From Hondaea fermentalgiana (taxonomy: Eukaryota > Sar > Bigyra > Thraustochytrida > Thraustochytriidae), in contig NPFB01000009.1 of the NCBI GenBank assembly GCA_014084085.1, positions 1 to 64,000 of the forward strand: a stretch of DNA of 64,000 nt. Direction: 5' to 3'. The notes beneath the pieces were generated by a model, which was not told the origin of the DNA, made no database searches, and saw only the letters and a list, made by a program, of their open reading frames with translations. The translations under genes were made by a program, and so were the position numbers. Of this stretch, positions 67 through 61,768 are shown piece by piece (within the stretch, counting starts at the first letter, position 1; each line of letters begins with the position of its first letter).

Positions 67-321
67 CGTGGCTGGCAGGGAGAGAGGAGAGAGAGAGCAG
101 AAAGGGGAGAAGGAGAGAAGGAAACCCGCGTCGAGGCAGAGGAAGGAGGAACGAGAGCGAGGCGAGGCGAAGAATTTGAATTCACTTTCGAAGCGATTCA
201 AAGCGAGGCAAAGCCCGTGGTGCGCGGGATCCGCGAGGCGCGAGGAGCGAGCCGCGAGGCGCGGACGGCGAGGCAAGAGCGCGCACGCTAGCCGGAGAGG
301 AGAGGAGAGGGGCGTGAGGCC

Positions 322-1587
322 ATGGGCAGGCGAGGCGTGCCACGATGGTGGAGGATTTCACGAGTACTTGCTCTCGCGCTTGCCCTCGCAGCGAGCGCGG
401 CCGCGAAGAGAACTCCGGTGCTGCTCATACCGGGCGACGGAGGCAATCAAATAGAATTCAAGCTCAACCGCAAGGAGCGGATACCTCACTGGTTCTGCTC
501 GCGAAACTCGCATGGATGGAAGACGCTCTGGCTGCAGGTCACGGATCTGCTGCCCGGCGAGATTGACTGCTGGAGCGAGAACGTGCGCCTGTATTATGAC
601 AAGAATTCGCAACAGTTCTCCAATGCCAAAGGCGTTGAAACCCGCATACCGGGGTTCAACGACACCTATTCTGTCGAGTATCTTGATCCGAATCTTCCTC
701 ACGAGTCAGAGTATATGGCCCGTCTGGTAGATGCTCTTGTGAGTCACGGCTATGAGCGCGGCGTGGACCTCGTCGCTGCCCCCTACGACTTCCGTCTGGC
801 TCCCATCTCCTCTTCAGCATCGATCGCGCAGACAATTCTGCTCATCGAAGACTTTTCGCGACGGAACCAGAATGCAAAGGTTGCCATTGCCTCGCATTCC
901 ATGGGGTCCATCGTCACTCTATTCCTCCTTCAAAATCAACCACAGTCCTGGAAAGACCGCTACATCAAGTTCTGGACGTCCTTTGCTGGCATTTTTGCCG
1001 GAGCAGCCGTCGAGTTCAAAGTCTTTGCCTCGGGCGATAACTTTGACATCAAGATCGTCTCAAGTAGGAGCGTCGTGACAGAGCAGCGGTCCTACGAGAG
1101 TAACTTCTGGATGCTGCCAGATCCAGCTGTCTGGCCAGACGACCTTGACATCCTGCTCACACCGGCGGGAAATTACACCGCGCGGGACGCAAAGATATTC
1201 TTCCGCGATATCGGGGACGACAACGGTCCAGCACTTGTCGCGCGCACGACAGGAATCACGCGGGTCGACGTGGCGCCCCAAGTACCTGTTCAAATGCTTA
1301 TAGGCTACGGGGTACCAACACCACTTCAATTCATGTACACCAAAGGCGACAAGACCTCATGGTTCAAGCACCAGCCCACTAAACTTGTCACTGGCGAAGG
1401 GGACGGGACCGTCAATCTGCTCAGCCTCACAGCCCCTCTCGATTCATGGCGGCGCCAGCAAAAACACGTGAACGTTCGTTATTTTGCCAACGTCTCACAT
1501 GCGGACATGATTCGCGACGAGGGCCCAATACTGGCATTTTTGCAGCACCTTGGACTTTTTGCTGCCTTCGAAAACCAAGAATCTTGA
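322..1587 (+). CDS. LCAT / lysosomal phospholipase A2 (PLA2G15)-like lipase, secreted or lumenal
   Basis: A 421-residue alpha/beta-hydrolase of the lecithin:cholesterol acyltransferase family, which moves or hydrolyses fatty acyl groups of phospholipids in the secretory/lysosomal lumen. Residues 1-28 are a signal peptide: basic start, then a long Leu/Ala run ending in AAA. The family lid/oxyanion segment P-G-x-G-G-N is at 37-42 (PGDGGN) and an aromatic Trp-rich strip is at 57-71. The nucleophile elbow is H-S-M-G-S with Ser193, the acid is Asp361 in EGDGTV, and the base is His393 in SHADM, so the triad is complete. Length matches PLA2G15/LCAT (about 400-440). The first in-frame ATG at 322 gives the signal peptide directly, which supports the start. 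No intron is needed. The exact substrate cannot be told from sequence; a plant-type PSAT/LCAT-like acyltransferase is the alternative. Confidence 0.9.
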   Translation: MGRRGVPRWWRISRVLALALALAASAAAKRTPVLLIPGDGGNQIEFKLNRKERIPHWFCSRNSHGWKTLWLQVTDLLPGEIDCWSENVRLYYDKNSQQFSNAKGVETRIPGFNDTYSVEYLDPNLPHESEYMARLVDALVSHGYERGVDLVAAPYDFRLAPISSSASIAQTILLIEDFSRRNQNAKVAIASHSMGSIVTLFLLQNQPQSWKDRYIKFWTSFAGIFAGAAVEFKVFASGDNFDIKIVSSRSVVTEQRSYESNFWMLPDPAVWPDDLDILLTPAGNYTARDAKIFFRDIGDDNGPALVARTTGITRVDVAPQVPVQMLIGYGVPTPLQFMYTKGDKTSWFKHQPTKLVTGEGDGTVNLLSLTAPLDSWRRQQKHVNVRYFANVSHADMIRDEGPILAFLQHLGLFAAFENQES

Positions 1588-17300: not shown

Positions 17301-20300
17301 CTTGCCGCTCGAGGCGATCTTGAGGTCCCGCGTTGACATTGTTGGGCGACGTCGAACAAGCACCGACATCTCCTGAGCCTGAGAGGATCGCTGCGCTTCC
17401 AAAGGCATCCAAGAGAGCACTAAGCACAGACTGAGAAAACGTAACATCAATAGCTCCACCGCTGATCCGAAGGTCCGCGCCGACCCCACCGTAGAGCGGC
17501 GAATCCTTGGCGAGGGCCTGCAATCCAACTGCAAAAAAGGACCCTTCGTTCTCGACCTCGGAATGAAGCCGAGGTCTGTCGATGCGACGTTCAAGAAGGC
17601 GAGTATTCGAGCGTGAGCGCATGGGCGTCTGTGTTGTGGCGCGCTTCACGAGCTGAGGGAACTCGGCCAGACGGTCCGCAATGCCAGGGCTCAGTCGAAC
17701 TTCTGTAAGGTCTTGGCCGACGACATCGTGTACTGTGACGGAGCGCATGGAGAAGTCAACGGAGGTTTCCATGGTGCGAAGAGACGCCTGAAAAGAAATG
17801 TTCTCGACCAGAACGAGAACGATTCCCTCGTACTCTTCGTAAACGACTTCTCGGGCCATTGTGTCATCACCTTCACCGGCCGCAACGCTGGGATCTTCTT
17901 CGTCGTCGCTCGTTCTGGCACCACTTTTGCCTAGATTCTCGTTTTCCGCGCGGTCGCCCGTGCCCTCTTCGTCGTCGCTCTCGCCTGCAAGAACTTCCTC
18001 GAGGGCTTCGTCGATGAGGGACGATGAAAAGCGCTTCATTTTGTCACTCACGGCGCTTCGGGAGCCAGCGTTGGCGCTTTGCTTAACGGTGGCGTCCAAG
18101 GACTTGGTGGGTGTCTTTGTTTTTCGCGAGTAATGAAACAGGGACGGAGAGCCCTCTCGCCGCTCGAGTTCATTGATTTCATCGAGCCAATCCCGGACGT
18201 GAGGCTTGATGACAGGCTTTTGTCGCGGAGATCCAAGCTCGCGACTCATGTCGGAGGTGCTCGCGGTCGCGCCTTCTCGCTCGCTGACACTCTGACTGTT
18301 GGCGGATGTATAACGAGACGGGCCAGAGAGACCATTCGACCCTCGCCGGATCGGTGCATCGTCATCGATGGAGTCCAGTCCAAATGACCGTCGTCTCGCG
18401 CGAGCAGCATTCTTCGCTGTAGCTTGCGTGGTGTTGGCTGCGGCACCCGGGACGATCTTTGGCCGGCTCACGCTCAGCATAATAAACTCGATGCTCATTG
18501 AACATTGAAGATAGGACACGTTTGTCCGTGCTCTGGGTGTTTCATCGGCACTCGCAGAGTCTGGCTGGAGACCACCCTCGCCCAGTTCGTCGCCCTGAAG
18601 CGCCGAAACAAAGCTCGAGACGCTTTCGCTTTCAGACAATTGCTGACGACGAAATGAAGTGTGGGTCACGGAACCCACCGTGGTGTAAAAGTCATTATCA
18701 AAGTCGTCAATATCATCGACGCCTCCTCCGCCGCCGCCGCCATCTTCGAGAGACGGTACCACAAGGTCTTCGTCTGCAGTCCGGAGCGTCTCGTGAAGAG
18801 AGGCCGCAATGGATGCTGACTCCCAGTCCGAGGAATCGAGTCGGCGCGCCGCAGGCCCACGCGGTGAAGCTGGGGCGCTCGGACCCGAGGAGGATGCTGT
18901 CGTGCCCATGAAACTCTTTGAACGCCGGGGCGAAAGCTCTTCAGGGGTTGGGCCGCCTGCTGCCGTCGTGGACGCACTCGAGGCAGCCAGCGAAGTCACG
19001 GAGGGGAGACGGTGAAAGCGATCCTGGCGCAAGTTTGCATGGCCTCCGACGCTGCTTGAAACAGACTCTGCGCTACTGTTCAAATGCAGACTTGGCATGC
19101 GGCTTTCGAGTGGGGCGAGACCCTCGATACCTGAGAGGCCGGCAAGAGGCGAGCTCACGCTCCGATGAAAGGGCGAGGTAATGTCCGAAACGGAAGCAAA
19201 GCGGGGACTCGCCTCCCCCGGGGCACGCGATGGGAACCCTTGTGCATTTCCTTGCGCTTGTACGCCGCTGTCGCCGCCTCCACCGATGACGAGCTCTCCA
19301 GCATCAAAGCCGCGATAGTTGGATTCCTGGGTTGAAGTAGCCGACTGTAGCGAGTTGGCAACTTGCGCCATGGCTTCGTACTTTTCTGGAGTAAGGTGAA
19401 TATGTAACGATGGAAGGTTGGCGGAAAACTTGTACTGAGGTAACGTCCGATCGTACTGAAGGATGCTGACGCACAAGATGACGTTGAACGTGAAACGATC
19501 AATGACGTGCATGTGACGACGATGTTGTTCTGCGCCTGACCGCCAGTTTGTGTCCATACTGGTTGCAAGGACCTGCACGTTGGAGCAAGAGATTTTGTAC
19601 TCGTCGAAAAAGCGCGACATTTCACTCGTCGATAGCGTGCTCTCCACGAGACTTCCTGTCGTTCCACGCACACGCAAGCGCGGGGGCTCCAGCGATGACG
19701 AAGGCGAGTTGGTGGGGTCAACCAGAGGCGATCCATAGACCTTGGCTGTTTTGCTGCCAGACTCACCAACTGCTGCCGAGCGATCTCGCGAAGAACGCTT
19801 TGTAGGCAGATGCGATGGCGAAGCATCTCGAGAGGAACGAGCCTCACGTTTGACAGGCGACAACGCTTTGTCGCGAATGGTCATACGCCCAAAATCAACC
19901 AGCACGAGCTTGATGTCCTCTTCTGCAGTACCTGCGGGAACCTGTTGAGGGAGAATGAGCAGCGGCGCCTGCATATCAACGTCCATCGACACGGAAAAGT
20001 GATTCTGGTAAGCATACTCGACCTTGGCCCGATTCCGCGACTGCACGTTGGAAAAGTCATTGATGGAGGCTAGTTGTGCCTCTCGGTAGGTGAATACAGA
20101 GTCCGGAATTTGAAAGGCTGCCGATACGCGGTCGACGCACGATGGGCTATAGATCAGCTCAAGAGGGCGAAGACGTAATCGAAGCGACATGTCCGCACCG
20201 GTCTCTGGACAGTGCGAGTCAACCTCAAGGGAGAAGACAGCCGTGCCCCGAGGACGCGAAGCGCGCATACCACGACCGCGCGACGAGCGAACACCCCACA

Positions 20301-23300
20301 GCTCGCTGTTCGAGTCTCCTGCCACATGCCGGGCCCTCAGCATGCGATGCGCCGATGATCCGTCCTCACTCAGACCTTCAGGATACGATGTTGTTTCGTC
20401 AATGTCTCCGATGCCTGCAGCCCCAATCCCTGCGCCAGGGCCTCCGCCGCGACGACTGCCTTCAAAATCGGAAAAGGAAGGCAAGAGAGGTTCGGGCACA
20501 GGCAGACCATCGTCTCCTTCCATTAAACTTGCACTTCCTGGAATGTCAAAGCCAGCGAGCGTTGCTGCCCACGCGGCAGAGCTCACGGATGTTGAATGAC
20601 GACGACGCTGCTCCGTCTGACGCGCGCTTCGCTGAAGCATCTGACGCTCCATGGCTTTGCGCTTTCGGTAATTAAATTCCATGCGCTCAGCAGCCCCGCT
20701 CCAAGCGGGCGGTGTCACATGCGATGCGCGATCGAGATCCGAAAAGGCAGAAACGCCCGACGAAAAGGTATCGGCAAGGCCAAGCCCGGGGCCAGCCGTC
20801 ATCTCTTTCAGTGCAACAATGCGTGTAAAGCGCTCGTCGCTGGAGCACCAGTCAAAGACTTCAAGATTCTCCAAAGACAGAAGCGCTCGGTCCGTTCCAT
20901 TTTCGCGTTTGGACACACGTACACTTGTACCCCAAAAGTGCACATCCACGAGCAAATCAGGGGTCGCAAGGGCGTCAGCGGGATTTGCATTGTCCCAAAG
21001 CTGCAGTCGACACTCCTCCATCCGAAAACGCATGACGGACTTGAAGCGCGCAGCACGTGGCCCGGATCCGTTTGCTGCCCCATTCGTGGACTTTGATCCG
21101 GCACCACCACTCTTGCCCGCTGCTCCACCTTTTCCATTTGCTCCGAGTTTGCCGGCCGCCCCATTCCCGCTTTGCCCTGCAGACCGAGATTTCGACCCAG
21201 CGTGCTTGCCTCGGGCCGGATCATTTCCATTGGGATCCGAGACGAGAATCTCCGTTGGGTCAAAGCTAAGCATTTCAAAGAGTCGCGCCTGCTCTTCACG
21301 CGTCATGAGCGGTCTTTCGTGATGAAAGGCCGCCGCAGAAGCAGAGGATGAGGTGGCAGGCCGCTGCTGTTGCGCATGGCTCGCGCCAGAGCTGCCGCCC
21401 AGACCCACGGCCCAGCCTGCCCAGCCAAAGACGGCTCCGGCCCAACTTGGAGTATCCTCGGCTGCCCCCGTCGGACCGCTGGCTGGAAGACCCGATGCAC
21501 GACGTTCTAGCTCGACGAGGCGAAGGTGAGCGCGCTCGAGTCGAAGCTGGTGTTCCGCGAGAGATCGAAAGTACATGACATCCTGAACGTCGTAGCGATC
21601 TTCGAGATCCTCAAGAATTGAGCGCTCGTGGGCGTTGAGTTCAAGATAGTCGGTGACAACGATTGTTGTGCTTGCATCGCCATCTCGGGCAGTCTCATCC
21701 TCATCGAGCAGAGTTCCGCCCGAATTCTCCTCGTTGCCTCGCGAGGACGGACTTGCGTTGCCCTGGCCTTGACTTGCGCTTTCATAAGCTGAGTCAGCGC
21801 GTCGCTCCTTCAAACGCTTTTCTGCGGCCGAACGCGGGGTACCCTGTATCTCGGCGATCCGCCGCCCACGGCGGATCATGTCCCTGCGAAGCTGCAACGG
21901 GGAGTCGACGGCGGCTTGGGCCACGGATGACTGTGGGCGCTGACCCTTGCGAGAGGGCGTTCCCGCAGAGGCGGCTACTTCGCTCCGAGGTCGGCCGGCT
22001 AAACTGCGTTTCCAAAGTTCAATGTACAGGAGTCGGTCTTGGCGACGATCAGTGATATACTCGGGGGAAAACCTCCTGCGGCGCTCTTGAACATTTTCAA
22101 GTGTGGCTCGAATGGCGAACTGCCACCAAATTCTCGGTGCGTCACGCACAGTAACGCCCTGCGGGCGAAATTGGGCATAGGGGTACGACTTTTCGGCGGC
22201 GTCGAAAGCAGCAAGCATTTCCCATGCATCGAGATACTGAAATCGCTCCAGAACTAGCGTCACCGTGGCAATGTCCAAGTCAACAACCGTGTCAGGGCTC
22301 TCAGGGAAGCGAGGGTCACGGTTGGACTGCATTTTTAGCGTAAGACTGACGGGCTCGAGAACAAAGCAATGCTGGGCGCCGGTACCGAGGCGCGCGCGCG
22401 TCTTTTGATGACTTGCCGACGCCGCGGCCGCCGCGGCCGCCGCAGCGCTTCGTATTCGCTCAGAGTCCTCGAGTGGGCGATCCGAGGCGGACCCGCGGCC
22501 ATCGGTGAGCTCCTCGGCGCTGCCATGTTTGCTCCCTGCGCCGGCAAGGCCGCCCGCGGCCCCACTCCCAGCAGGGGAAGCCTGGGCGCGCGCGCGCCGC
22601 GTCTCGCGCTCGACAAGCCTATAATCTTCTTCTTCTTGCTGCTGTCGCTTGGGAATCATTCGCTCAAAAATTGCTGCCATCTCGGCAAAGGTGCACGTGC
22701 TGTAATCGAGGTCGGCGCCATTCGTGCTCGTTCCAGGAAAGGGGTCCCAGTAGATTGCAAAGTGGTCCAGCCGAAAGAGCTTGTAAGCCAGCAGCTTTTC
22801 CAAGTACTTGCCGGACTCGTCGAGCCGACGCTTGATTTCAGAGACCAAATCCACAAAGCATGGCGTCCAATGCCGATCCGTGGATTGCATCTTGAGGGAC
22901 TCCCACGTGGCGCCAACCGAAAAGGCGTGCTTTGGATTCGTGACCCGGTCCTCGTAGCGCACGTGCACATTACGAACATTGAGTTCGATATTGTCCACGA
23001 TTTTGTTCATGAGCCTGGCGGTGAATCCAACCTTGGCCATTTCTTCGGCCTCGCTCATGTGGGCCCTGCTGATGGCGTCTGTATCGTCAGCGTCTCCTGC
23101 AGGATTCGTCATGCCAGAGGACTTGCGCAATTCTGCCCGTGCAAGATCAGCCTTTTTGCGAGCTTTGACTTTGCGCTGATAGTCCCGCTCATTGTATTCC
23201 AGAGAAGGCTCGAGGATGAGAAAGACGCGGTCGATGGAAATCTCTACGGGTTGACTGCCAAGATGAGTCCATGGAATCTTGACGTCTACCTGGCCAATAA

Positions 23301-23484
23301 ATCCGCGTCGTAGTTTAATAGGGACCCCTACCGTGTCAAAAGCGTCCTTGCGCACTTCGAGTTCGGAAAGAACCATATGGCCGCCGTAGATGCTTGTGCT
23401 CACCTTGTCTGGGCGAAAGCATCCATCTTCTACGTATGCACCAAGAACGCGATTGAGCAAGTTGGCAACCCAGCCCTCGAACAT
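4988..23484 (-). CDS. VPS13: VPS13-family bridge-like lipid transfer protein, two exons, about 6058 residues
   Basis: VPS13 proteins form a long hydrophobic groove that moves phospholipids between membranes at contact sites. Exon 1 (23484-9841) begins with the chorein domain (MFEGWVANLLNRVLG, IPWTHLGSQPVEI) and the family N-HVRYEDRVTNP motif near residue 190. The VPS13 adaptor-binding (VAB) repeats run from about 3615 to 4565 as variants of a hydrophobic-strand/Asn motif (RIYNETGLPI, YWIVNLSDL, FVLINALGR, YRIDNLSLQ). Exon 2 (9520-4988) completes the last VAB unit (PYTWDD), then carries the ATG2/VPS13 C-terminal helical region (about 5555-5680: GDPRGLVQNLGAG, FYEP) and a PH-like domain (about 5940-6058). 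The splice CAG|GTACGT...CACAG|CGC is phase 0. The protein is much longer than animal or yeast VPS13 (about 3100-4400) because of low-complexity inserts: poly-Ala near 22430, Ser-rich runs, and poly-Gln near 8340. ATG 23484 precedes the canonical N-terminus. Confidence 0.93.
8321..8367. repeat. CTG/CAG trinucleotide tract encoding poly-Gln in VPS13
   Basis: A near-perfect (CTG)n tract on the plus strand reads as CAG codons on the VPS13 strand. It encodes about a dozen glutamines broken by one Leu, in the linker between VAB and the C-terminal domains. The tract keeps frame, so it is a coding microsatellite likely to vary in length between strains. Confidence 0.85.
9521..9840 (-). other. Spliceosomal intron of the VPS13 gene (320 nt, phase 0)
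   Basis: On the minus strand the donor is CAG|GTACGT (exon end at 9841) and the acceptor is TGCTCACAG|CGC (exon start at 9520), preceded by a T-rich tract. A CTGAC branch-like motif lies near 9590. Joining restores a single continuous VAB repeat: ...SLQTLRLYQ from exon 1 runs into RGAPPQTQQVLLP from exon 2. Reading through instead gives a nonsense tail ending near 9670. This is the only intron in the window supported by both splice signals and protein continuity. Confidence 0.88.
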
Positions 23485-30253: not shown

Positions 30254-33200
30254 CTAATCCGCCTTTTCTTCGACGTTTTGAGGCACGTTCGCACTAGCAT
30301 CGACAGCGCTTGCTTTAACGATGACTTTCATATGCGCTTGTACCCCGTCAAACTCGATCTCTGCGGATTCGAGCACGGCCGCCGCAAATGTCTTGAGGGG
30401 CTCTTCGCCTTGCTCTGCCTGATGCCTTTCCATTTCGACAGATGTCGAGGCTTGCTGCGAGACTGTTGGGCAGTAAGCACGCACATGAACGCCACGGACA
30501 TTGGTTTCGTCATCCTTGTCGACCAGAGCGTGCGCGGTGAGCACCGTGTACATGCCAGAGAGTTTGCCAACGCGCTTGGCAAGAAGTGATCCACTGACAA
30601 CACTCGGCAACAGATAAAGCTTGTCGCTGCTGGTGGCGCCATCCGGTGAGACGGGCTCCGGCATAGGATGATGCTCGCCGGCGACATCCTCGACGGACAC
30701 ACCAACGCCAACTTCAGACATCATCTTCAAGTGCGCTTCAGCCTCCTCGGGCGTCTCCACGCCGTCAAGGTTTGCGACAAGCGCTGTTTGGCCGTCCGCT
30801 TCATCGTGTAGATGCTGTAAGCGCAGGCGAGCACGCAGGAGCTCGACAACAAGTTGGCGCGTGAGCCCCGCCTGCTTTACGCCACCCCGAGCAGCATGCA
30901 GGATTGCCCGTGTCTCGTCAATTTCTGGCACTCGTACAAAGGCCTTGAGTCCTCGTGCGGGCTCATAGACCTGAAGCCAGAGCGTTGCCGCAGGACCGTG
31001 CCCGTCGGCCATAGTCAGTTCAGCAGAAGATCCCATGGCGGATACGAGCTGCGCAGTAATGATGACGGAAACGCCACTCGAAGTGAACATGCCCGTGGAA
31101 AAGAGCTTGAGACCCTCTTGCGCCGTCGCAGCTTTGATCTTGCTTCCCTTGGTGGGTGGCGGCGCCGCGAAGAGACGCTCCCGGCGAAGTTTTGCCCACG
31201 GCAAGAGGAGCACATCTGGTACGGACGGGTCGAGGCTCCGGCGAATTCGCAAAAGCGGGACGAGCTGACGAACCATTTCTTGACGTCGGTGCGCAGCCAA
31301 CATCAGGCGATCACCCTCGAGCGCCTCGATGAGGTCCGGACCTTGCAGGAAGAGGACAATATTGGTTTGACGCTGCGGATTGTATGCATAGATGCGAAGT
31401 CGTGGTGCGCGGCCGCCGCCCTGCTCCTTGTACAGCTCGTCCATGCCGTCCTCGAAAAAGGTGAGAACGTTGACCTCGGCAAGGCCCGAGGTCGTCTCGT
31501 GCTGCAAGGGTACCGAGTGACCCACGCTGAGAATCTTAAATCCACGCTCTTGCGTCTCTGCGTGAGTGTGTGTGGGAAGAACGAGAATGGCGCCATCTTC
31601 GCCGCTGCCTCCTCGCGAGTCCTGTGAGCTGTTCCATGTCGCGTCGACAAACATGTTCTTTTGAACGGGTGTGACCTTGTCGACCGAATAGAGACGCGAC
31701 TGAGCGACACAAAGCGAGAGCGCGTTCGCATCCGGGTCCAAATAGAGACGTTCCTGGAGAAGGAAAGCGATAAGCGCTCCCTCCCTGTCTGCAGCGAGGA
31801 GGTCTTGGCGACCTCCGACAGCAGCCCGCAGACTATCGGCTGTGTCGAGCACAATCGCTGCGCGGTGCTCGGTCGCCGGCTCGTATGCCTCGAGACGGTA
31901 GGCATGGAGAGGAGACACTGGGTGATTGAATCGGTTACCCGCTGCATCCTGGGCGCTATCAATACTGTTCTGACGCCAGACTTCAAAGATGACATATCGC
32001 CCCTCCGCCTGGCCAATCTTGTGACCGTGACGGTACACGAGCAGGCCCGATGGCTTGCTGCTTCTCTCGCCGACTGGAATTGATCGGGTGGCATCAAGGT
32101 TCTCGACGAGAACTTCGGCAGAGATGACTTCCGGTAAACTTGGCATTTGCGCCGCAGCGGACGGCGAATCCGCAGCGGCCGTTGGGTCGCGTGCAGATTC
32201 TTGCGCACTTGGCTTTTCGCGTTCGGGAAGCTTTGTCTCGGCACTTCGCACGATCGTGCCCGAGGCTTCATGAATTGCAACGAGGAGAGAGGGATCGTCG
32301 GCGCCACCCTCGGACGCACCAGCCTTGGACTTGGACTTGACCCACTGTGAAACCTTTCCGACCACATTTTTCTTACGCCGATCGTTGATCGTGGTCACAT
32401 CTGAGTCCTTGGGGTCCTGCAGACGCAGCGTTGCCGCAAGTGCTGCAAACGAGGCCTCGGAGCCGTCAAAAGACTCGCTGGTACCGAGAAGCTGATCCAT
32501 TTGCTCGTCAGAGAGCCCGAGTCTATATCGCGCGCCAGAGACCTTGTCATAAGCCATGATGTCGAGCACTTCGGTCGGCTCTGCGCCCTCGCGAAAGTTG
32601 GCAAGAATACTGTCGTCCTGGAGATCGTCCTCATAGAAGCGGTCATCATCTTGTCCTTGGATTCGCACCTGCGTTGGCGAGATGCAAAACTCAAGAACAA
32701 GAAGAGCACCTCTGGGTTTCGCTGGATCATGGTCGAGGTCAAGGCGTTGTACGCGGTGGGTAAGCTTGTGGATTGACTTGTCGAGAACAGCAACTCGTTC
32801 GTCCGTTTCAGAGACTTCGGAAGATCCGCTCATTGTGCGACCAAAGTTCGAGATGCTTCCTGGTTTGTGAAGATGAAGGCGCGCAAAGAGCTTTTCAAGC
32901 CAGCGATTTCGGTCACCTTCGTTCAAGGAACCCAACAGCTGTAGACGCGCGCGCGCAGAAAGTAAAAACTCGGCACGATAGCTGGTCGGAGGATAATAGG
33001 TAACCACGCGAAGCGCCTTGGTGGCTGTCGCGACATGGACAGAGACAACGTGCTTCTTGCTCGAAAGCACCACGCTACCTTCAAAGATTTTACGGCCAGG
33101 AATCACACCATGATGCACGATGAGTTCAGCGGGTCGTCGCGTTGTGGCACGACGAATGGAAAGGCGATCCACAAGATGCAAAACCATACGATTGCCCCGC

Positions 33201-36200
33201 TTGGATAGAAGATCTTTGCGTTCCCGATTTGAGGAAGTAGCCTTGCAGATACGCTCGACGGCTTCCTGGTCAACACGGACGCTAAGGGCGCGCGAGGTGG
33301 CAGCTTCGTAGGCATCGAGCAAGAGCTCGCCGGGCGCGAGCTCGGAGGCGGTAATTGTGGCCATTGTTGCATCGAGCTTACGTGCCGTACGGAGGAGGCG
33401 TTGTCGCTTGCGGCGAAGCCGAAGCTCGTAAGGGTGTGGGGGCGCACCAAAAACGCGCTGGCGTGGTCGCTCAAGCGCCAAGAGCTCGAGGAGTCGCCGG
33501 TACAGCTGCACATCGTCTCGCGGAGGGCGGCGCGGATCCCGCATCTCCACCGAGTTCGGTCCGAGCAGCTTGTTGATGTCCTTGACAGGAACCACAGCTG
33601 TATAGTTGGCACTGTCTCGCGGCACATAAGCTAAAAAGAAGAAAGCTTCTGTGATGGGATCCCGGTGGATCGATACAACGAGACGGACGCGCGTGACAGC
33701 TTCCATGGCAGCCTTTTTCGCCTGTGGGGCAAGGTGCGTGGTCGGCGACTCGTATGCGGGGACCGTAATTGAGGCGCTGTAGACTTTGACATCTCGGAGC
33801 GTCACGGACATGAGACTGATGAGGGCGCGTTTCCAACCGTCGCTCTGCATGGCCAAATCTCCGTTGCACTGGGTCGGCCAATGATCCTGCCGAGGCTCGT
33901 AGCCGGATGGGAACTTTTGAATTCCGTCGCGGACGATGACAACCGAGGAGAAGACGGGACTCGATGATTTGGAAATAACTTGCGGAGGCCCACCTTCTTC
34001 GTCGAGCAAGCGAGCGAAACCGGCGACAGACCGGACCCACCATAAGAGCGTACCGGCAATTGGGTAGCTTACGATGGCTTCGTGGGGCGCGCCGCCCTCC
34101 TTGGGAAAGCCATCGTGGGCAAAGTACTCGAAGATGGCGTTGACGTTGTCAACAGGAATATTGTGCACATCCACTGCTGCCATGCGTTCGGAGAGATCGC
34201 CTGTGCTTAGGTCGAGCAGAGGTAGAGCCTGTTCCCAGGAAACTGCCCCGACACGGTTTTCGGGACCGGAAAAGGTTTGGTGAGGCGTAAGCAGGATGAT
34301 GACCGTTTCGAGGATCATGACGAGGGCCGGTGGTGGGTTTTTTGCCTTGGAAAGCTCGATCAGCTGGCGCTTACTGGACGGCGAGGCAAAAAGGAACTCT
34401 GCCGAGCATCTGTCCTCCAAATACAGCTTCAGGCGCGTGTTCACAGTCTCTGGGTCGTTGTGCGAGGACGACGAAGAGGTAGTCTTCACAAGCGCTGAGG
34501 CATCTTTGCGGCGCAAAAGGCCATCAGCACTGTCGAGATCTCTACCTTTATCGCCGTCGTCGTCGTCGTCGTCGTCATTATCATCATCATCATCATAGTC
34601 GTTGTGATCGTTGTAATCCTCATCGTTGTCGAGGAGTGAAGCCGTTCCGAGTCGGGAGCTTGTGGACAGCACGGCTCTGGCGACCGAGTCGACGCCTGTG
34701 TATCGCTCCTCCTCGGCGAGAATGGACGGCGGCCAATTCCTACTCTCAGCATTGCGAGCACCTTGATTGAGCTCGCGGGGCCCGCGATTTCGATCGCAGC
34801 CCTTGACGAGAACAAACATAGGCCGCGGCTCGAGGGTTGACCGTGCAACGGCAAAGCGACGATTGAAAGCATTTCGTTGACGCGCGCCCATGCCAACTGT
34901 CACGTCGAGGATGATAGAGTGTCCTCCATCGAGAATTTCTTGGAGAATATCGACCTCAAACTTGTCGTGCGCGACGTGCACAAAGGTTCCCGGCAGCGTC
35001 CGTTTGAGCTGCTCGCAAATTTCGGCGCGTGCGCCGCAGGGAACATCATCCGCAATGGCGATGAGAAGAGGTCGCGGCCGCGTTATTCGGCAGCGAGTAA
35101 TTTCTTCTGGGACGTAATTATCCGGATCAATAACGTCACTGTCGTAATCCGTATCTGCTGGCTCCCATACTTCGAGCCCCTCCGGGTCCTCTGCGGCAAT
35201 GACGGCCTTCCACTCGGACCACTCGTATGCGCCGGGCTCAATGAACTCGGGAACGATTTCCTGGCAAATGACAATGTCTTGAAGCCATTGAAGGAGGAAC
35301 TGCGCGGCGCGCGAGCCGCGTTTAAGAAAAGCCATTCGCTTGACCGTAAGGTTTGGATCATGCATGTGACGACGCACGGCCGTAATACGATCTTCATGGA
35401 GGTAAAGACAACCCGCGCGAGCGGCAATGGCGAGAGCTCGTACCTTGTCGAGGAAGTAGGGCCGGCGAAGGCCGCGCTTGCAGGCTTTCCAGTTGATGAG
35501 ACGCTCCACGTGGGGTTCTGGCGCGCACGTCCCGCGTGCTGTGAGCAAAAGACAGCACTTGACAAGCGTCAGAGCCTCGGGCTCGATCTCGTCGGCTTTG
35601 GCTGCAGCCAACTCTAAAAGGTCGCTTTGGAAAAAGGAGTTTGTGAGCGCGATCGCTGCAAGGCCATATTCTTGAAGGCGACGCTTGTTGGCGGCACGTC
35701 TGCGTCCGCGTAGACCACGGTAGAGCTTTTCGATCTGGATTGCGGCCTCTTGACGTCGCTTGGCGGTGCGGATCTCCCAGACCCGCTTGCGCGCTACGCA
35801 GCCACGCCAAAGGCTTTCAATGAGTACGCTTGCATCACGGCGCGTGCGCACGAGCTTGGCACGGAGGCGGCCCTGATGACCTCGCCAGACGGACTGCATC
35901 GAAAGGGCGCAGCGCGAGTGGAGAGCATGAACGCGGGCGAAGCGAAGTCGGCCGAGGCGGCCACGAACGACACGCTCAATCTGTATTGCGGCGGCATCTT
36001 CGACGCGAACGAGAGGGCGCACTGGTGCCTCTTCTTCGAGGTTTAGATCGGCTTCGTCCACGGGTTCTCCGAATTCGTGCTCGGGAACTTCACCGTCGGG
36101 AATGTCGACGGCTGCCGCAAATGCGTCGCCTTGTCGCTGTTTTCGTTCGATCGTTTCCTTGCGCATGCGAAGTTGGTCTTGAAGCTGACGTTCATGGAAC

Positions 36201-38139
36201 TGACGTTGAACGGCTTCTTTACGTTCGAGGAGTTTTGCACGATGCTCGAGATCAATGCGTCGACGCTCTACCTCGATCTCTGTTTTCGAGACAAAGGAAG
36301 CCTTGACGAGAGCATCGCGTTGGCGGCGGGCGAGATCCTGAGATTCATCGAGACCGCCAACATTTTGCACTTCATCCTGGGTTGTTTCTGCTTCGAGAGT
36401 GGCGAGGTCAGCCCGCGCACGTTCGAGGATTGTCTCCATGGCATGAAGGTCCTTTTCGAGAGATTCGTTCTCGGCTCTTGCACGCCGAATGTCGAGATCG
36501 AGTTGGGCGCCACGGCTACGACGTTTGGGAAGACTTTTGCGGCCCCGGGCGTGGTGCCTGTGCAACGGGCTCGTTTCGCCGCCTTGCTTGGCCTTCTCCA
36601 TCATGTAGGTTCCATTTGGCCAGTGTCTACGGTCGCGAGCAGGGACCTCACTACCCTCATCGTCTGCTGATGAGGCGTGCTGCTCGCGAACTTTGAGCGT
36701 ATGACGCCCGTGAGTGTTTGCCTCGTCCTTTCCCAGTGCGGCCGGGACGACCTGGCCGATGGAATTTCGGGTGAAGACTCCATGCATTTCCTCTTCTTGC
36801 AAAATTATGCGTTCTGCCTCAAGAACGCGAATCATGTCGACCTTTTCGCGTGGTGCTGTGATCGCAAAGGTCGGGGACGGAGACATTCCATCAGCAGAAG
36901 CGAGGCCGTCTTGATTCTTGTCATGTCGCTGTTGCCGCTGCGGCGTGGAGGGAGCTGGCGCAAGTTGCATGTCTGGGTCATTCACGACCGGGGTCGAGTA
37001 TGGGTTTTTCGCAGCAGACCTCGACCCGTCTGGGGCCCCGCGCGGTCTTTTGCGCGAAGAACTAGCCTTTTTCGTGGGTGAATTAGGTTTGCGCACGCGG
37101 CCAGGTACGAGCGGTTCGTTGGCGGCCGGACTTTCGTCCAATGTACGCGTCACCATGAAAGGGTTACGTACCGCGGATGCGCCGAGCCAGGCGGTAATGG
37201 TGTTGCTTTTTTGGAGGAAGTCGAGATCGGAAGGTATGCGAAGGAGATAATTCGTTCCATTCCATACAAACTGAGAGCCCGCGGGGGCACCGCGCTTCCA
37301 CTTTGCAATATTGTCGATGACGTCGACTGTGACACTTCGAAGGAGATCTGCCAGGTCGACGAATTCATGCTGCTTTTCAGCAAGGGCCGCGCCAGAGAGA
37401 CCACGTATGCGTTCAATGTAATTCTCGCGGAGCACGATACACTTGAGAACTTCGACCTCTCTTTGCGGGTCGCTTCCGCTCGGGCGCTGAAAGGTGACGC
37501 CTCCGCTTTGGGTTGACGTCGATCGTTGCACGAGGGCGTCCACCGCGTTTGCGTGGTTCTTCCCTTTTCTGTTTTTTGGACTTTTGGCGCCTGCACTTTC
37601 GGCGACGCGCGCGCGCTTGGCCTCGCGTTCGACGGCGACCAGTCGCTTCTGCACGTGCTTGCGTCTTGCCACCTGGCAGTGCGGGTCGCGGAGCGCATCG
37701 TACGCGCCGCCGTCCGAGGTCGCCGTCGGCATCCTCTCTCCTCCTTCTGCGTCCTGCGCTGTCCGCGGCCCTGGCGCTTGAGGGCGCGCGCGCCTCGCCC
37801 CGCCGCCGCCGCCGCCGAGGTCGCCTCGCGGCNNNNNNNNNNNNNNNNNNNNNNNNNNNNNNNNNNNNNNNNNNNNNNNNNNNNNNNNNNNNNNNNNNNN
37901 NNNNNNNNNNNNNNNNNNNNNNNNNNNNNNNNAGGGGCGCCGCGGCCTGCTGGCGCGGCGGCGGCGGCGCCGAGCCAGCGGTGCCAGACCGCGCAGACGC
38001 GCAGGAGGTCGTCCTGGTACGCGACGACGCGGTCGCAGTTCTTCTGGAGACGCTCGACCTCGCCCTCGAGCGTCATGACGGCGGCTTGCAGGTCGCGGAT
38101 GCCGTCCAGGACCTCGTTGCTCGCAGCGAGCTCGCTCAT
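30254..38139 (-). CDS. Large IQ-motif protein with two dynein-stalk/MTBD-like modules and A-Y-x-P repeats (interrupted by an assembly gap)
   Basis: Order from N to C. A short coiled coil (MSELAASNEVLDGIRDLQ...) before the gap. A basic and Ser-rich region, then a long coiled coil (about 36060-36520). Three to four IQ motifs (35690-36005: AAIQIERVVRGRLGRL, AAIQIEKLYRGLRGR) that should bind calmodulin. A dynein-heavy-chain stalk/MTBD-like module (35250-35600: NWKACKRGLRRPYFLDKV, then DPNLTVKRM...SRAAQFLLQWL). A P-loop-like segment lacking the Walker Lys (34790-35085). A poly-Asp run (34540-34640). A second MTBD-like module (34005-34365: NPPPALVMILETVIILL, VSWEQALPLL, TLLWWVRSV). Then eight copies of an unnamed repeat around A-Y-x-P to the C-terminus. 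The reading frame is open throughout apart from the 100-N gap at 37833-37932, so the length is undefined there. Start at 38139 is chosen because the coiled coil begins there; an in-frame ATG at 38400 is possible. It probably links calmodulin to microtubules or axonemes. Confidence 0.75.
37833..37932. other. Assembly gap of exactly 100 N
   Basis: A placeholder run of N inside the 5' part of the IQ/dynein-MTBD-like gene. Flanks are extremely G+C-rich (GCC repeats both sides), which explains the sequencing break. True gap length and reading frame across it are unknown. Confidence 0.98.
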
Positions 38140-38613: not shown

Positions 38614-41600
38614 ATGAAGACAGCGCTGTGGCGCGCGCTCCGAGGTGACACAGCGCAGTCGTCTTTGCGCGAGTCGTCCTCGTCTTTGTCCTCCTCCTCG
38701 TCTTCTTCATCTGCTTCGTGGACGGATGAGGACGATGATGGCAGCGAGGATGAGGATGCCAAGTCGATCCTTCCGCATGATGCGCATCCACGAGCACGCC
38801 GAATGTTTGAGGCGATCCAGCGCCTCGACTTAGAAGGCGCGATCGATGTGATCGAGGAGGACGAACTGGATGTCTGCGCGCGGAATGGAGTAGCGCCTCC
38901 ACGAGGCATGCGGAAAGTAGAGCAGCGTTCTGAGCTCATCAACTTTGAAGACGCATACGGAATGACACCTCTATTGCTAGCGTGCCGTATTGGCGCAGGG
39001 AGAGTCGTAATGGGTCTCCTCTTGCGCGGCGCTGACGCCAACAAAGAAAACAAATTAGGTGTGACGCCACTCATTGCATGCGCAAAGTACGGTAACGTTA
39101 ACGCAGCCAATGCTCTTCTGAAAAAAGGCGTCGGCTACGACGTGGCCCAGGTATTGCGTGAAAACAAGCGGGGTGAGACTGCCTTTGACCACATTCTCGC
39201 AAGTGCGAAAAGCAAGCTTGAACCCGCATTCGATGCCGCAGCGGCGCTTGAGGAGGACGGAAACAAGACCTTGCTCAGTTTCAAGCGCATCAGGAAGGAC
39301 CAAAGCATACGTAAAAGGCAAGTTGCGGTACTGGTCAGCAAGCTTGTGGGGGGAATTCGAAATGCGCACAACACGGGTACCGCGCGTTCGAAGCAGATTC
39401 TCTCACGGAACGATGCGGCGAGGGTGATCCAGCGCCGGGTGCGCAAAATTCTGGCCAAGCGAAGGCTGCGCGAAGCAATGTGGCGCGTTGCCGCCCTCAA
39501 GAAGCGAGAGCGCATGATCGAAGCCTGCGCTGTCAAAATACAGCGGAGTTTCAGACAGAGACTTGCACGTCGCGCTGCGCACGAAGAAATAAAGCTCCAT
39601 CGAGCTGCAGTGCAAATCCAAAAGATATTCCGCGGGCGTGTGGAGCGGCGCGCGCGTGCCTTGGTCCTTGCGGCACAACGTGAGGGACAAGATATTGCTG
39701 CCATGTGGCAGCGCCACCGGGGATGGATGGCACGATACTATCTCTGCGCCGTCGATGTAGCATGGGAACACAAAGTCGAGCGCGCTGTGGGTGTTATTGC
39801 TCGAACCGTGCGAGCGTGGCTGGCAAAAAGGCGCGTGGCGGGTCTACGACGGCGTCGGGACGCTGCGATTGTTCTCCAACGGCACGGACGAGGACATCTC
39901 GAGCGAACACCTCGTCGACAGAGGGAAAGACGCTTTCGTAAGCGGAGTCGGGACGCTAGGGAGGAGATTCGTGCAGCACTTGCGTCTGCCAAGGATATGT
40001 TGCCAATCCTGCAAAGCAAACGACAATTTGTCGCAGCGCGAAGCATCTGTCGCGCGCTCAAGCCCGCGGCTGTCGAGGCAGTTGCAAGAAGGACGCTCTG
40101 TCGCAAAGTTGCCGCGGCTGTGCGTCTGCAGGCTTTTGTCCGTGGTGTCCTGGGTCGACGTCGCGCATACATGCTTTTCGCACGGCATGAAGCGCGACTC
40201 GAGGCACTACGAGGATGCCTTGTTGTCAGTGGTTTGCATCCTGTCGCGGGGGCGAAGCAAAAGAAAGGTTTGTGCGGAAAGTGCTTGAAATGCGAGTGCG
40301 AGCGTTATGGAGAAGCAGATCTCGGCTCGGGCATGTCTCGCGACATTTGCACTCATTGTGGGCATCATGAATCTATTCATGAGCGTCTCAATCATGGAGG
40401 ACCTCATGGTGCAGTGGAGAATCGACGCGAGTTACAAGATATTTTCCAGTTTCAAGTAGGGCCTGCTGGGCGCAACGATGGGAGCATCTTTAAGCAGCGT
40501 AAACTGAAGCGAGAAGCAGAGCGTGAGTTACGCAAGGCGGTTCGGGCTCGCGTCGAGCGGCAGTGGGCCCGCGCTTCGGCGCAACGACGGGATAACTCTG
40601 TATATGCGGCTCAGTATCTGCTTGAACTTCAGCAAAAGTCGAATTTGCGGGATGAAGATGCTCGAAAACACATCGAAGGAAAGCTTGACTGCTCGCGATT
40701 GGGAGTGTCCCAGACTTTGCTTCCAGGTCTGGCTAAAGTGCAAAAGATGCAACGAAGTCTGCGCGACCAACTTGAAGAGCAAAGGTTGCGACTTGCGCAA
40801 ATTGAGCACCTGGCGAGGCATTCCCCGCCGCCAAGACCTTTGCAGTCGTCAAAAGCTCGAGATAAGGTGCTTTTCGATATTCATGGGATGGAGCACAGAC
40901 GTAAGGAGAAAGCAAAACGTCTCAAGTCCATTCGAAGAGGCTGCGAAGTTACGAAAAAGAGTCTCCCCCCTTTGGCGCGCAAGACCAAGTCGAGTAAGCG
41001 AAGCGTGAACTCGATGCGTCCGGCGGCCGTGGCGTCGATTCAGAGAGGCGTCGTCTCTGACCCTTTTGCTGCAGAATACGCTGTCGCGTCATCGAAGAAG
41101 AAGGAGAATGCGGTTACCTCGAAGCCCTCCGATGCTGTAGAGTGTGCTTGCCAGACAGATGGCGGGGTCGAAGTTCAAGTGTTTACGGCAATTGCACGCC
41201 TGGAAGCTCGAATTGTGCGGCGGCAATTGTCAGAGGTTGCGCACGCCAAAGCGTCTGACGCGCGTGCACAGGAAGAAGCGGCAGCGGGTGCTGAGCATTC
41301 CAAGTTGAACAGGGAAGGGGCGAGAGCACAGTGCGAGCTTGCGTCGATCTCGGGTCGAGTGTTTCCGCTTCGCTGTACGCCCGTCATCGTTGGCCGCAGT
41401 TCGCCGAGCGACATTCTTGTCGGTGCTGATGATGATGACGAGGCCGAGAAGTCGCGTCCAAGATTGGTTTCGAAGCGGCATTTGATCTTGCACCTTGACA
41501 GTCTCGGCGCAGAGCTCGTTGATTTGAGCACGAATGGCACCTACATTAATGGACATCGAGTGGATCGTTCCGAGCCGAGGAGGCTCGCGCACGGGGACGT

Positions 41601-41700
41601 CTTGGCGCTCGGGGCGCGAGACGGCCCAAGATTTACCTTTTACGTCAAGAACAGATCTACCAGCGCCACCGATGGTGTACGTACCTCCAAAAACTTGTAA
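38614..41700 (+). CDS. Ankyrin - multi-IQ - Cys-rich - FHA scaffold protein
   Basis: A 1028-residue protein. Residues 1-50 are a Ser-rich then acidic leader. Two to three ankyrin repeats are at about 112-175 (DAYGMTPLLLACRIGAGRVV, GVTPLIACAKYGNVNAANAL). At least five IQ-type motifs lie between 265 and 520 (ARVIQRRVRKILAKRR, AVKIQRSFRQRLARR, AVQIQKIFRGRVERR, AIVLQRHGRGHL, AVRLQAFVRGVLGRR), implying several calmodulin/EF-hand light chains. A Cys/His cluster at 554-589 (CGKCLKCECERYG...CTHCGHHESIHE) looks like a zinc site. Basic coiled coil follows. A C-terminal FHA domain at about 915-1012 has GRSSPSD, SKRHLIL, DLSTNGTYINGHRV and GDVLALG, complete for phosphothreonine binding. No introns are needed. 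Start ATG 38614 is the first in frame. The combination fits a scaffold of a cytoskeletal or flagellar structure, which is inference. Confidence 0.85.
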   Translation: MKTALWRALRGDTAQSSLRESSSSLSSSSSSSSASWTDEDDDGSEDEDAKSILPHDAHPRARRMFEAIQRLDLEGAIDVIEEDELDVCARNGVAPPRGMRKVEQRSELINFEDAYGMTPLLLACRIGAGRVVMGLLLRGADANKENKLGVTPLIACAKYGNVNAANALLKKGVGYDVAQVLRENKRGETAFDHILASAKSKLEPAFDAAAALEEDGNKTLLSFKRIRKDQSIRKRQVAVLVSKLVGGIRNAHNTGTARSKQILSRNDAARVIQRRVRKILAKRRLREAMWRVAALKKRERMIEACAVKIQRSFRQRLARRAAHEEIKLHRAAVQIQKIFRGRVERRARALVLAAQREGQDIAAMWQRHRGWMARYYLCAVDVAWEHKVERAVGVIARTVRAWLAKRRVAGLRRRRDAAIVLQRHGRGHLERTPRRQRERRFRKRSRDAREEIRAALASAKDMLPILQSKRQFVAARSICRALKPAAVEAVARRTLCRKVAAAVRLQAFVRGVLGRRRAYMLFARHEARLEALRGCLVVSGLHPVAGAKQKKGLCGKCLKCECERYGEADLGSGMSRDICTHCGHHESIHERLNHGGPHGAVENRRELQDIFQFQVGPAGRNDGSIFKQRKLKREAERELRKAVRARVERQWARASAQRRDNSVYAAQYLLELQQKSNLRDEDARKHIEGKLDCSRLGVSQTLLPGLAKVQKMQRSLRDQLEEQRLRLAQIEHLARHSPPPRPLQSSKARDKVLFDIHGMEHRRKEKAKRLKSIRRGCEVTKKSLPPLARKTKSSKRSVNSMRPAAVASIQRGVVSDPFAAEYAVASSKKKENAVTSKPSDAVECACQTDGGVEVQVFTAIARLEARIVRRQLSEVAHAKASDARAQEEAAAGAEHSKLNREGARAQCELASISGRVFPLRCTPVIVGRSSPSDILVGADDDDEAEKSRPRLVSKRHLILHLDSLGAELVDLSTNGTYINGHRVDRSEPRRLAHGDVLALGARDGPRFTFYVKNRSTSATDGVRTSKNL

Positions 41701-45963: not shown

Positions 45964-46831
45964 TTCCTCTTGCCTCTGTGTCTGGCTCTGTCTCCCTCTC
46001 GTCATCGCGCCCTCCTTTCCCGCAGACACCCGCAGCCTCCCTCTGCGCTTCCACTGCGGAGCGGCCCCAGCCAGCACCGCGCGCGGGGCAGCAAGCGGGG
46101 CGATGCTAGGAGCAGGCTAGGCTCTGGCTATGGTGGCGCGAGCGCGGAAGGAAAAAAAAAAAGACTCGGAGGCAAAAAATTAAAGAAAAAGAAATCGCCA
46201 TCCATCCATGCCACGCCATGCCAGGCCATGTCATGCCATGCCAAGCATGCGACACGACACCAAGCATCGATCGAAAACATGTGGCGCGCGGAAGGAGATA
46301 CAGAGAGTGACCGAGAGAGCGACACAGAGAGAGCGACAGAGAAAGAAGATCGAAGAAGGCGCGGAGAAATGGGAAGGGTGGTAGTAAAAGGAAAGAGGAA
46401 AGAATAAAGAAATGAAAGGGAATCAGGAAGAAATGGAGGAAGGAAGGAAAACCTTGGACACTCCTTCCTTTGCCTTTTGCTTTGTCTTGTCTTGGCCTTG
46501 CTTCCCGACGAGCTCCCCTCCGAGCGAGGCAGGGGACGAAAGCACGACTCCAAGCAAATCGCCAACTCGGTCAGGAGCGCAGTTGTGCTCGCGGCGCTTG
46601 TGCAGGTGGCCGTGCGAGGCCCCCTGCCCTGCCCTGTGCATCGCCTGTCGAGCGCGCCAACGAGCGCGTGCGGCAGCCACGAGCAGACAAACAGGCAGAC
46701 AGACAAAGAAACACAGTGACTTCTTTCTGCTCGCTCTAGGACGGCAGAGCAGCCACGGGGAGGAGAGTGGCCAGCTGCTCCGTCCGTGCCACCAGATCGA
46801 ACAGAACCCAGAAAAAGCACAACCAGGGAAG

Positions 46832-49800
46832 ATGGGCGCCCAAAAGCTTCTTGCAGCAGTCTTGCTCGCGCTCCTGGGTGCCAACACGCACGCCCAGATC
46901 TCACCTACAAATTGCGACCTCGGATCACTCTATGATGGACGATGCTACGCTACCTCTGGCAATTATGCCGCAACCTGGAGCGATGCAAGAAGCATTTGTG
47001 AAGCGAATGATATGGTGCTCGCCTCCCTATATACCGTCGAGGAAAACGATTGGGCCTACCAGAATATGGGCTGCAGGAATAATGGCTACGGTTCCAATCG
47101 CCCCCGAGGCGTGTGCTGGATCGGTCTTTACCAGACGCAGGGCGAGACCGCGGCATGGCGTTGGGTCGAAGGCATTGACGCGACGTGGACGCATTGGGCC
47201 ACAGGCGAGCCGAACAACGTCGACCAAGATTCCGATGGCGGCGAGGATTGTGGTCAGATCTGGCGGTACATTCCCCGGAACAGCGGCGACGAGGTGGGTC
47301 GGTGGAACGACGAGCCATGCGGCTGGTACTATCCATTCTTTTGCACCGCCTATGCAAAATGCGATGCTGGTTACTACCTGAGCCAGGCATATGAGCGCTG
47401 GACCGACACATCCCTTCTCCCCGAGTGCTCTCAGTGCCCTGGTGGCACCTATCGTGAAAACATCGGCGCAACAGCCTTGAGTGACTGCCTCGAGTGCCCC
47501 GCCGGCACGATTGGCTCGCCTGGACGCGCAAGCATTTGCTCGGATGCATGCCCTCAAGGTTACTATTGCCCCGCGGGGACCAACGCCGATGCAGAAGTTA
47601 ACTCCGAGAACGGCATGCAGGCCTGCCCACCAGGAACCTACGGACCAAGCACGGGACTCACCAAGGTCAGTCAGTGCAAGGCCTGCGATCCAGGTTACTA
47701 CTGCGAAAACGAGGCCAACACCGTACCCAACCCAGCTCCCTGCGACGAGGGTCGTTGCGGCTTTGTTGCGCAGACAGCCAACACGTGCACGCAGGCCTGC
47801 CCTGCTGGCTATCGGTGCACGGCCGGATCGGCTTGCCCTGGCGCCACCAAATGGGACAACTCTTCCGTGTCCAACACAGCCGCGGACTGTGGTGGCTCGA
47901 GCGTCTATTGCCCGGCTGGTTCCGTCGAGGCGACCCCGGTTGACGCAGGCTACTACAGCACGGGAACCCCCGAGGAGCGCAGTACCGGCCAGACCCAGTG
48001 CGAGGCCGGATACTACTGCTTAGCTGGTGTCCGCATCAACTGTCCGGGAGGCACATACCGTGCCGAAAAGGGCGCAGCCAGTGAGGCCGAGTGCTCCGCG
48101 TGCCAGGCAGGATACATTTGCCCTACCACGCGCACGAACACCAGTCCGCAGTCCGTTAACTGCCACGATGATTCCTTTAACACCTCGCTCACGGCCTATG
48201 ACCCGGCCGAGGTGTACTGCCCCGCCGGGTCCACGTGGCCTCTCATCGCCGATGACGGCTATTACACGACTCCAGAGACCGAACAGACACTTTACAACCG
48301 CCGGGCCCAGGTTGCCTGCGATGTCGATGAGTTCTGTGAAGATGGGCTTCGCACGCCCAAGCTCGTGTGGAGCACAAGCACGGCCTGTGGGACTGCAAGC
48401 TCTGCCACTACGGAGGTCTCTGAGATGTCTGCCCAAGGAACTTCGTTGGGAACCTTTGCAGCGCAGATCAATGGTGATAGTTCCGGTTTCGACCTCGAGT
48501 ACGATATTGGAACCGTCACCTACATTGACTCCTCACTTACGAGCTGCGAGCCCACGACGCAGGCCAAGAATCTCGATATCTTCCAGGTCAGCAGTTCGTC
48601 TGGAGAAATGACGCTCACTCGCGATGATCTCCAGTTTGAAACCTGTCTGCCGACCTTGGATATTCGCTACACCGTTCCTGTAATTGCTACCATCTACGAG
48701 ACGGGCACCACCAACGTCGTCTCTTCAATCCAGTGCGACGTCGTTGTCGAGGTGGAAGATGCAAACGATGACCCCCTTTTCGTTGGCTACAATGCTGGTG
48801 ACGGATCGAGCGTCTCGGAAACTATTTACTACCGCCAGATTGATGAGCGTGTACAGAAGAATGTCCCTGTCGCCGTTTGCGACACGACTGGCTACGCGGC
48901 GGGGTGCCCGGCCATTGGTTCCGGCGCGGCTGAGCTCCTCACCACCGATGAAGATGATGGCTCTGTTCTTCAGTACGCGATTGTCAGTGGTGACGACGGT
49001 GCCGCCTCTGATGATGTACGTCCGTTCAAGATCGATCCTTGTACCGGCCTCGTATCGGCGCGTACTTCCGACCAAATCAGATACAATGACCAGCAGGTCT
49101 ACACGTACGTCATCTCCATTACCGATGATGGTAACGGGGGCCGCTTCGATACAAAGACTGCATCGGCGACGCTCATCATTTACGTCATCGATGTCAACGA
49201 CGACCCCGTCCTCACCTATGACGCAAGCACGAACCCAATGTACATTCTCGAAAACCAACCCGAGAGCACGGCTGTGACGGGAACAAGTCTTACTGATCTT
49301 GCTACCGACGAGGATGGCGATGAGCTCACATTTCAGATTGTTACCAACGACGGTGATGCCTTTAAAATAGTTGATAACGTCATCATGACCACCCGTGTCG
49401 GCGCCGAGACCATCAACTACGAGTCGTCCAAGAAGCGGTACTTCCTCGATATCGAAGTGCAGGATAACCGCGGTGGCTTCGCACAGGGCACGATCCAGAT
49501 TGTCGTCCAAGACAGCAATGATGCGCCCAACATGGATGACAGCGTCAAGTCCTTTTACGTTTACGAGGGCGACAGCGATGCGGTCGTCTGCGCAGCTCCC
49601 GAGGCTACTTGCGACGAAAGTACGGATCCAGGCCATGTGACCGCCACCGACGAGGATGAAGCAGACGATATCACCTTTGCGCTTACAGGCAACCACACTG
49701 ACAAATTTTCGATTGATGCCACGACTGGTGTCATTCGGACGACGGCCGCTCTCGACTTTGAGGATCAGTCAATCTCTCTGCTTGGTGGCTCGGGCCGTGG

Positions 49801-61668: not shown

Positions 61669-61768
61669 NNNNNNNNNNNNNNNNNNNNNNNNNNNNNNNN
61701 NNNNNNNNNNNNNNNNNNNNNNNNNNNNNNNNNNNNNNNNNNNNNNNNNNNNNNNNNNNNNNNNNNNN
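61669..61768. other. Assembly gap of exactly 100 N
   Basis: A placeholder gap immediately upstream of the first recognisable codons of the TPR/FHA protein, following G+C-rich and microsatellite sequence. The N-terminus of that protein is probably lost in it. Confidence 0.98.

Follow-up and report, generated by a model that had tools for sequence, protein, structure and literature searches.

An eight-copy repeat without a named family and two predicted dynein-type microtubule-binding domains in one gene of Hondaea fermentalgiana

The question raised by this locus is whether eight segments built on an A-Y-x-P core are true copies of one repeat and, if so, what kind of protein carries them. The segments lie in gene FCC1311_010482 of the thraustochytrid Hondaea fermentalgiana, in a 64,000-nucleotide stretch of contig NPFB01000009.1 (hereafter the window). 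An earlier note, made from the sequence alone, had drawn attention to them, with a span that covers only the C-terminal half of the gene; the deposited model runs from 38139 to 30254. The database record is a protein of 2468 residues, 100% identical over the array and labelled 'Hypothetical Protein', while its UniRef name, 'Calmodulin', is misleading. The analysis shows that the eight units are homologous and that the array is old. With a probability of roughly 0.6, the gene encodes a giant microtubule-associated protein that is not a motor and that is known here only from stramenopiles, the array making up its C-terminal half.

Homology of the eight units

All eight segments named by the earlier note were recovered in a single minus-strand open frame. 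Their tyrosine codons start at 33628, 33310, 32998, 32551, 31885, 31384, 30967 and 30475 (units U1 to U8), which is 13 to 22 bases above the positions first given, and the spacing, put at 105-225 residues, measures 104-222 residues. The gene and unit limits are as follows.

30254..38139 (-): complete gene FCC1311_010482 (start as deposited, through the stop)
33431..33709 (-): unit U1 (AYVPRDSANY); its first modelled strand may precede these limits
33131..33409 (-): unit U2 (AYEAATSRAL)
32405..32725 (-): unit U4 (AYDKVSGARY), a divergent copy
31691..32053 (-): unit U5 (AYEPATEHRA)
31166..31591 (-): unit U6 (AYNPQRQTNI), the copy matching SAS-6 heads in structure comparison
30731..31123 (-): unit U7 (VYEPARGLKA)
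30305..30628 (-): unit U8 (AYCPTVSQQA)

Two word-based searches yielded a set of at least 27 homologous proteins, that of Hondaea included. The units roughly follow the consensus rGrllfr-(x)-kIxG-(x2)-vvVtVfe-(loop)-LrfxaYdPxxS-(x2)-hxlxlxxxelxxLlg-(x)-LlxrLrl. Among the 203 unit cores of 27 proteins, the central position is tyrosine in 175 and an aromatic residue or histidine in 192, and proline is found at +2 in 140.

That the repeat of at least eight copies is real is evident from profile comparisons with hhalign. With alignments of 22-27 homologue rows for each unit, all 28 unit pairs were joined at probabilities of 47-97% (E 2e-4 to 2e-11), and successive merging of the units gave 94.8-98.5%. 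In all 28 free local alignments tyrosine fell on tyrosine, whereas the 80 control comparisons of units with N-terminal tiles did not exceed 7.6%; the eight comparisons with an 11th tile, which overlaps U1, were excluded from these controls (5-99%). A hidden Markov model (HMM) of the unit found no unit at an independent E-value (iE) below 1 in 54 shuffled or reversed controls; the 27 real proteins are its training set, and their own matches are therefore not independent. An independent test is provided by two other Hondaea genes, because these were picked by a dynein-domain match and not by the unit: an HMM trained only on homologues matches units in them with iE values of 1.2e-7, 2e-6 and 3.3e-5, the best of 69 controls (60 shuffled, three reversed and six window proteins) reaching 1.2. 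A third gene picked in the same way contains no unit, and a plain protein search of the Hondaea genome with the array returned no paralogue, only the array itself and one row at E 0.87.

Profiles made of two sequences, those of the window protein and of a homologue 63% identical to it, did not lift the unit pairs clearly over background, and the leave-one-out HMM, which placed six of eight left-out units in register with only U2 above all 197 background tiles, is only suggestive. These two results are what speaks for a chance likeness of ordinary beta-hairpins, an explanation left with almost no probability and refuted by the pairwise hhalign comparisons, the alignment of tyrosine on tyrosine and the matches in the two paralogues.

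Domains preceding the array and related genes

The earlier note missed that the units are preceded by IQ motifs and two predicted dynein-type microtubule-binding domains (MTBD1 and MTBD2). From the N- to the C-terminus the protein comprises a conserved N-terminal domain, a coiled coil, four IQ-like motifs on a long helix that leads into MTBD1, a P-loop-like domain into which MTBD2 is inserted, and the eight AYxP units.

35648..36028 (-): long helix with four IQ-like motifs (P0002 residues 561, 588, 614 and 643)
35195..35647 (-): MTBD1, first dynein-type microtubule-binding domain
34781..35089 (-): P-loop-like alpha/beta domain, first part; no GKS or GKT seen in its first loop
33941..34429 (-): MTBD2, second dynein-type microtubule-binding domain
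33761..33955 (-): second part of the P-loop-like domain, following the MTBD2 insertion; the alignment covers ranges of about 317..751 in model mf13716ca06e5

Both the sequence profiles and the predicted structure identify the two domains as being of the type of the stalk-tip microtubule-binding domain of dynein heavy chains, in a protein without a Pfam-detectable dynein motor. In comparison with a dynein profile MTBD2 reached 97.8%, a value that is partly circular because the three dynein sequences came from its own matches. Tile 590-699, which overlaps the start of MTBD1, reached 10.5%, and the other 13 controls and units at most 0.43%. The Pfam family PF12777 itself does not reach these domains of the gene. 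No family of the AAA+ ring or dynein heavy chain was found by Pfam in P0001 (E up to 1) or in P0002 and five homologues (E up to 0.1), the gap at 37833-37932 being unread; one P-loop-like domain is present in the model. The four IQ-like motifs of the window protein are recognised by pattern. PF00612 (IQ) matches 10 of 14 scanned proteins (best 8.3e-11), the window protein falling under the cut-off at E 1.3, and the profile of the helix matches the myosin Va neck in the PDB (E 1.2e-9).

The two exact runs of 100 N in the window, at 37833-37932 and 61669-61768, are probably assembly gaps, the first of which sits in the 5' part of the repeat gene. An in-frame stretch starting VRNPFMV (36929-37171, minus strand) is omitted from the deposited model and present in homologue P0003. 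Its RNPF core is almost invariant across the family alignments, and the omission is probably an annotation error in the form of a false intron.

The order of the units is kept across homologues. In a comparison of up to 22 proteins, with the five most similar left out, the units of P0002 were closest to the same-numbered unit in 22/22 (U1), 19/22 (U2), 16/22 (U3), 6/20 (U4), 7/22 (U5), 12/19 (U6), 3/18 (U7) and 7/18 (U8) cases. The sources of six of the 27 proteins are Hondaea, Aureococcus, Chrysophaeum, Aureoumbra, Scytosiphon and Aphanomyces, all of them stramenopiles, so that the carriers span a thraustochytrid, an oomycete and several ochrophyte algae; the searches being word-based, absence of the family outside stramenopiles is not established. 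P0006, from Aureococcus, has a Pfam COX6B match (PF02297, 1.3e-9) that occurs in one homologue of six and is probably due to fusion of the gene model with a neighbour.

PF12777 has 22 matches in the Hondaea genome. The 18 in frames of 4181-5065 residues were regarded as dyneins, and the remaining four lie in shorter frames on C62, C183, C25 and C17. The frames L022:2229-6674 (+) on C25 and L023:2788-9501 (+) on C17 are the two paralogues mentioned above, which match the N-terminal domain (iE 1.2e-14 and 5.6e-15) in addition to the unit. They contain one (L022) and two (L023) significant units and one dynein-type match each, which is borderline: 24.5 and 23.5 bits, and 22.2 and 19.1 bits in a second run, at a cut-off of 24. 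With the MTBD2 profile they are not separated from shuffles, and the P-loop-like profile has no match to either among the matches listed. L023 also contains a WW domain and a p25-alpha match just under the cut-off. It is the window gene with its homologues that carries the main claims.

The third gene, L021:1357-9366 (-) on C62, is a frame of 2669 residues with a clear dynein microtubule-binding match (3.6e-15). It also has IQ, SAM and ankyrin domains and lacks the AYxP unit; judged from its sequence, it is apparently another non-dynein user of the dynein tip. The N-terminal domain recurs in further frames.

L029:1599-5006 (-), L030:1562-5143 (-), L031:1487-3670 (+) and L032:2649-6467 (+): frames with an N-terminal domain of the FLWNG-NYLL-SDLDFL type

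The N-domain matches of these four loci range from iE 1.8e-17 to 2.3e-9, with a best shuffle of 1.5. No significant unit or microtubule-binding domain was found in them by the unit and MTBD profiles; L029 and L030 have EF-hand matches below the cut-off and L032 has IQ motifs. The N-domain may represent an unnamed family of its own.

Fold and kinship of the unit

The proposal that the repeat belongs to no named family is borne out. Pfam contains no match to the 1208-residue array at E up to 10, the 19 unit cores (E up to 1) gave four single weak matches with a best E of 0.031, a PDB sequence search with the 19-row unit profile gave nothing under E 0.44, and Pfam on protein, array and units gave nothing credible for the units. 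AlphaFold2, run on 1166 residues of the array with 21 alignment rows, yielded a mean predicted local confidence (pLDDT) of 67.6, with roughly 70-90 in strands and helices and less than 50 for 292 residues, mostly in loops. The predicted TM-score (pTM) is 0.39, and the model therefore does not give the arrangement of the units relative to one another. In the models of U3, U5, U6, U7 and U8, four strands are followed by two main helices and then by one or two short strands. Roughly the same pattern is seen in U1, U2 and U4, with an extra helix in U2 and with first strands in U1 and U4 that precede the assigned limits. With two main helices beside its strands, the modelled unit is not a pure beta-sandwich, and the earlier suggestion of a beta-sandwich repeat is not supported as worded.

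The explanation that survives best, at slightly under even odds, is that the units have an independent alpha+beta fold without SAS-6 kinship, used for generic protein-protein docking. Its support lies in the lack of a Pfam, PDB-sequence or significant PDB Foldseek match: no PDB row was obtained for the array at E up to 0.001, the list being headed by large beta-rich proteins (SF3B, DDB1).

Among solved structures, the nearest fold found was that of SAS-6/XRCC4 heads, by a Z score that alone proves nothing. It is possible, if rather doubtful, that the units genuinely belong to the XRCC4 superfamily, in which case eight SAS-6/XRCC4-like heads in one chain would bind head to head, either among themselves or to partners of the SAS-6 type. 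By sequence, hhalign against a profile of four SAS-6-family sequences, two of them Hondaea's own, gave 0.04-0.57% for the units and 0.17% for the merged unit profile, which is not significant. XRCC4, XLF, PAXX and CCDC61 were compared by sequence only via Pfam, and PF06632 (XRCC4) has no match in the Hondaea genome, but none in the controls either. The genome contains two SAS-6-family genes, L011:1303-2157 (-) and L012:1372-1950 (+), one close to a Toxoplasma conoid SAS-6 N-domain protein (9y9z_20, E 7.5e-72) and the other closest to Chlamydomonas-type SAS-6 chains (6zz8_A, E 5.6e-30).

A C2-like or PUR-like nature of the units, with membrane or nucleic acid as the ligand, is very improbable. 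Foldseek does retrieve PURA repeats I-II (E 0.019, probability 0.84). No C2 family, the example that the earlier note had given of a known fold that would refute its proposal, occurs among the Pfam matches of the array or the unit cores or among the listed Foldseek rows, and the structure comparison has no C2 row among the matches listed, where unlisted folds could still apply. Against BFVD, Foldseek gave two rows at E up to 0.001, an uncharacterised Erwinia phage protein (4.8e-6) and a phage peptidase S74 protein (7.8e-4), in a list headed by phage tail and fibre proteins; with TM-scores of 0.05-0.08, these were put down to the background that long repetitive beta proteins produce.

Proposed role and comparison with known systems

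The gene product looks like a so far undescribed scaffold on microtubules. As a non-motor microtubule-associated protein, it would bind tubulin through MTBD1 and MTBD2, as the dynein domain does, and would therefore act as a static cross-linker or anchor. The IQ helix is predicted to run on into MTBD1 as the dynein stalk runs into its domain, and calmodulin on this helix might tune microtubule binding with calcium. The array, by its repetition, could provide rod-like docking modules that fix partners or neighbouring microtubules; the flagellar or basal-body apparatus is a guess at the site. A more specific and unlikely picture is that of eight SAS-6/XRCC4-like heads in one chain, tethered to microtubules through two stalk tips captured from dynein, as a calmodulin-switched, covalent counterpart of the head-to-head protofilaments of SAS-6 and CCDC61 in the stramenopile microtubule or basal-body apparatus.

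The analysis defines a repeat family without Pfam match and reveals the microtubule-binding tip of dynein in a gene without detectable motor, joined to the AYxP unit, a pairing seen with a weaker tip match in two further Hondaea genes. If the SAS-6-like fold is true, one chain would carry parts that centriole scaffolds otherwise assemble from separate molecules. Testable candidates for stramenopile microtubule organisation are supplied as well. In the titles and abstract openings of the literature searched, no paper was recognised that deals with this protein or with dynein microtubule-binding domains in a protein other than dynein; as far as these reach, the family is nowhere described and combines known kinds of part.

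Elsewhere in the window, a frame next to the repeat gene and on the other strand (38614-41700, +) combines ankyrin, IQ and FHA domains. Other frames encode a 4497-residue protein with cadherin, TIG and C-type lectin domains (46412-59905, +), a VPS13-like protein of 4604 residues (9670-23484, -), inward-rectifier potassium channel domains (2037-4592, +) and an LCAT domain (322-1587, +).

Among known systems, the dynein heavy chain stalk tip (PF12777) is matched by two domains in sequence profile and predicted fold, and MTBD1 prolongs a long helix as the dynein domain prolongs the stalk. Unlike dynein, the protein has no AAA+ ring or dynein tail by Pfam, two copies of the domain, IQ motifs on the helix and eight AYxP units behind them. 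The Hondaea paralogues L022 and L023 share the N-terminal domain, the AYxP unit and a borderline dynein match, but have one such match each and fewer significant units, with a WW domain in L023. Four IQ-like motifs in one long helix are reminiscent of IQ-motif proteins such as the myosin V neck, SPATA17 and FAP305; unlike in the myosins, the helix leads to a dynein-type domain and not to a myosin motor. The heads of the XRCC4 superfamily (SAS-6, CCDC61, XRCC4, XLF and PAXX) are seven-stranded barrels with a helix-turn-helix between strands 4 and 5; the modelled units may resemble them in strand order and helix pair, and these heads give the best structural rows. Sequence similarity to SAS-6 is not detectable, and whereas members of that superfamily have a single N-terminal head before a coiled coil, the Hondaea protein has eight tandem copies at its C-terminus.
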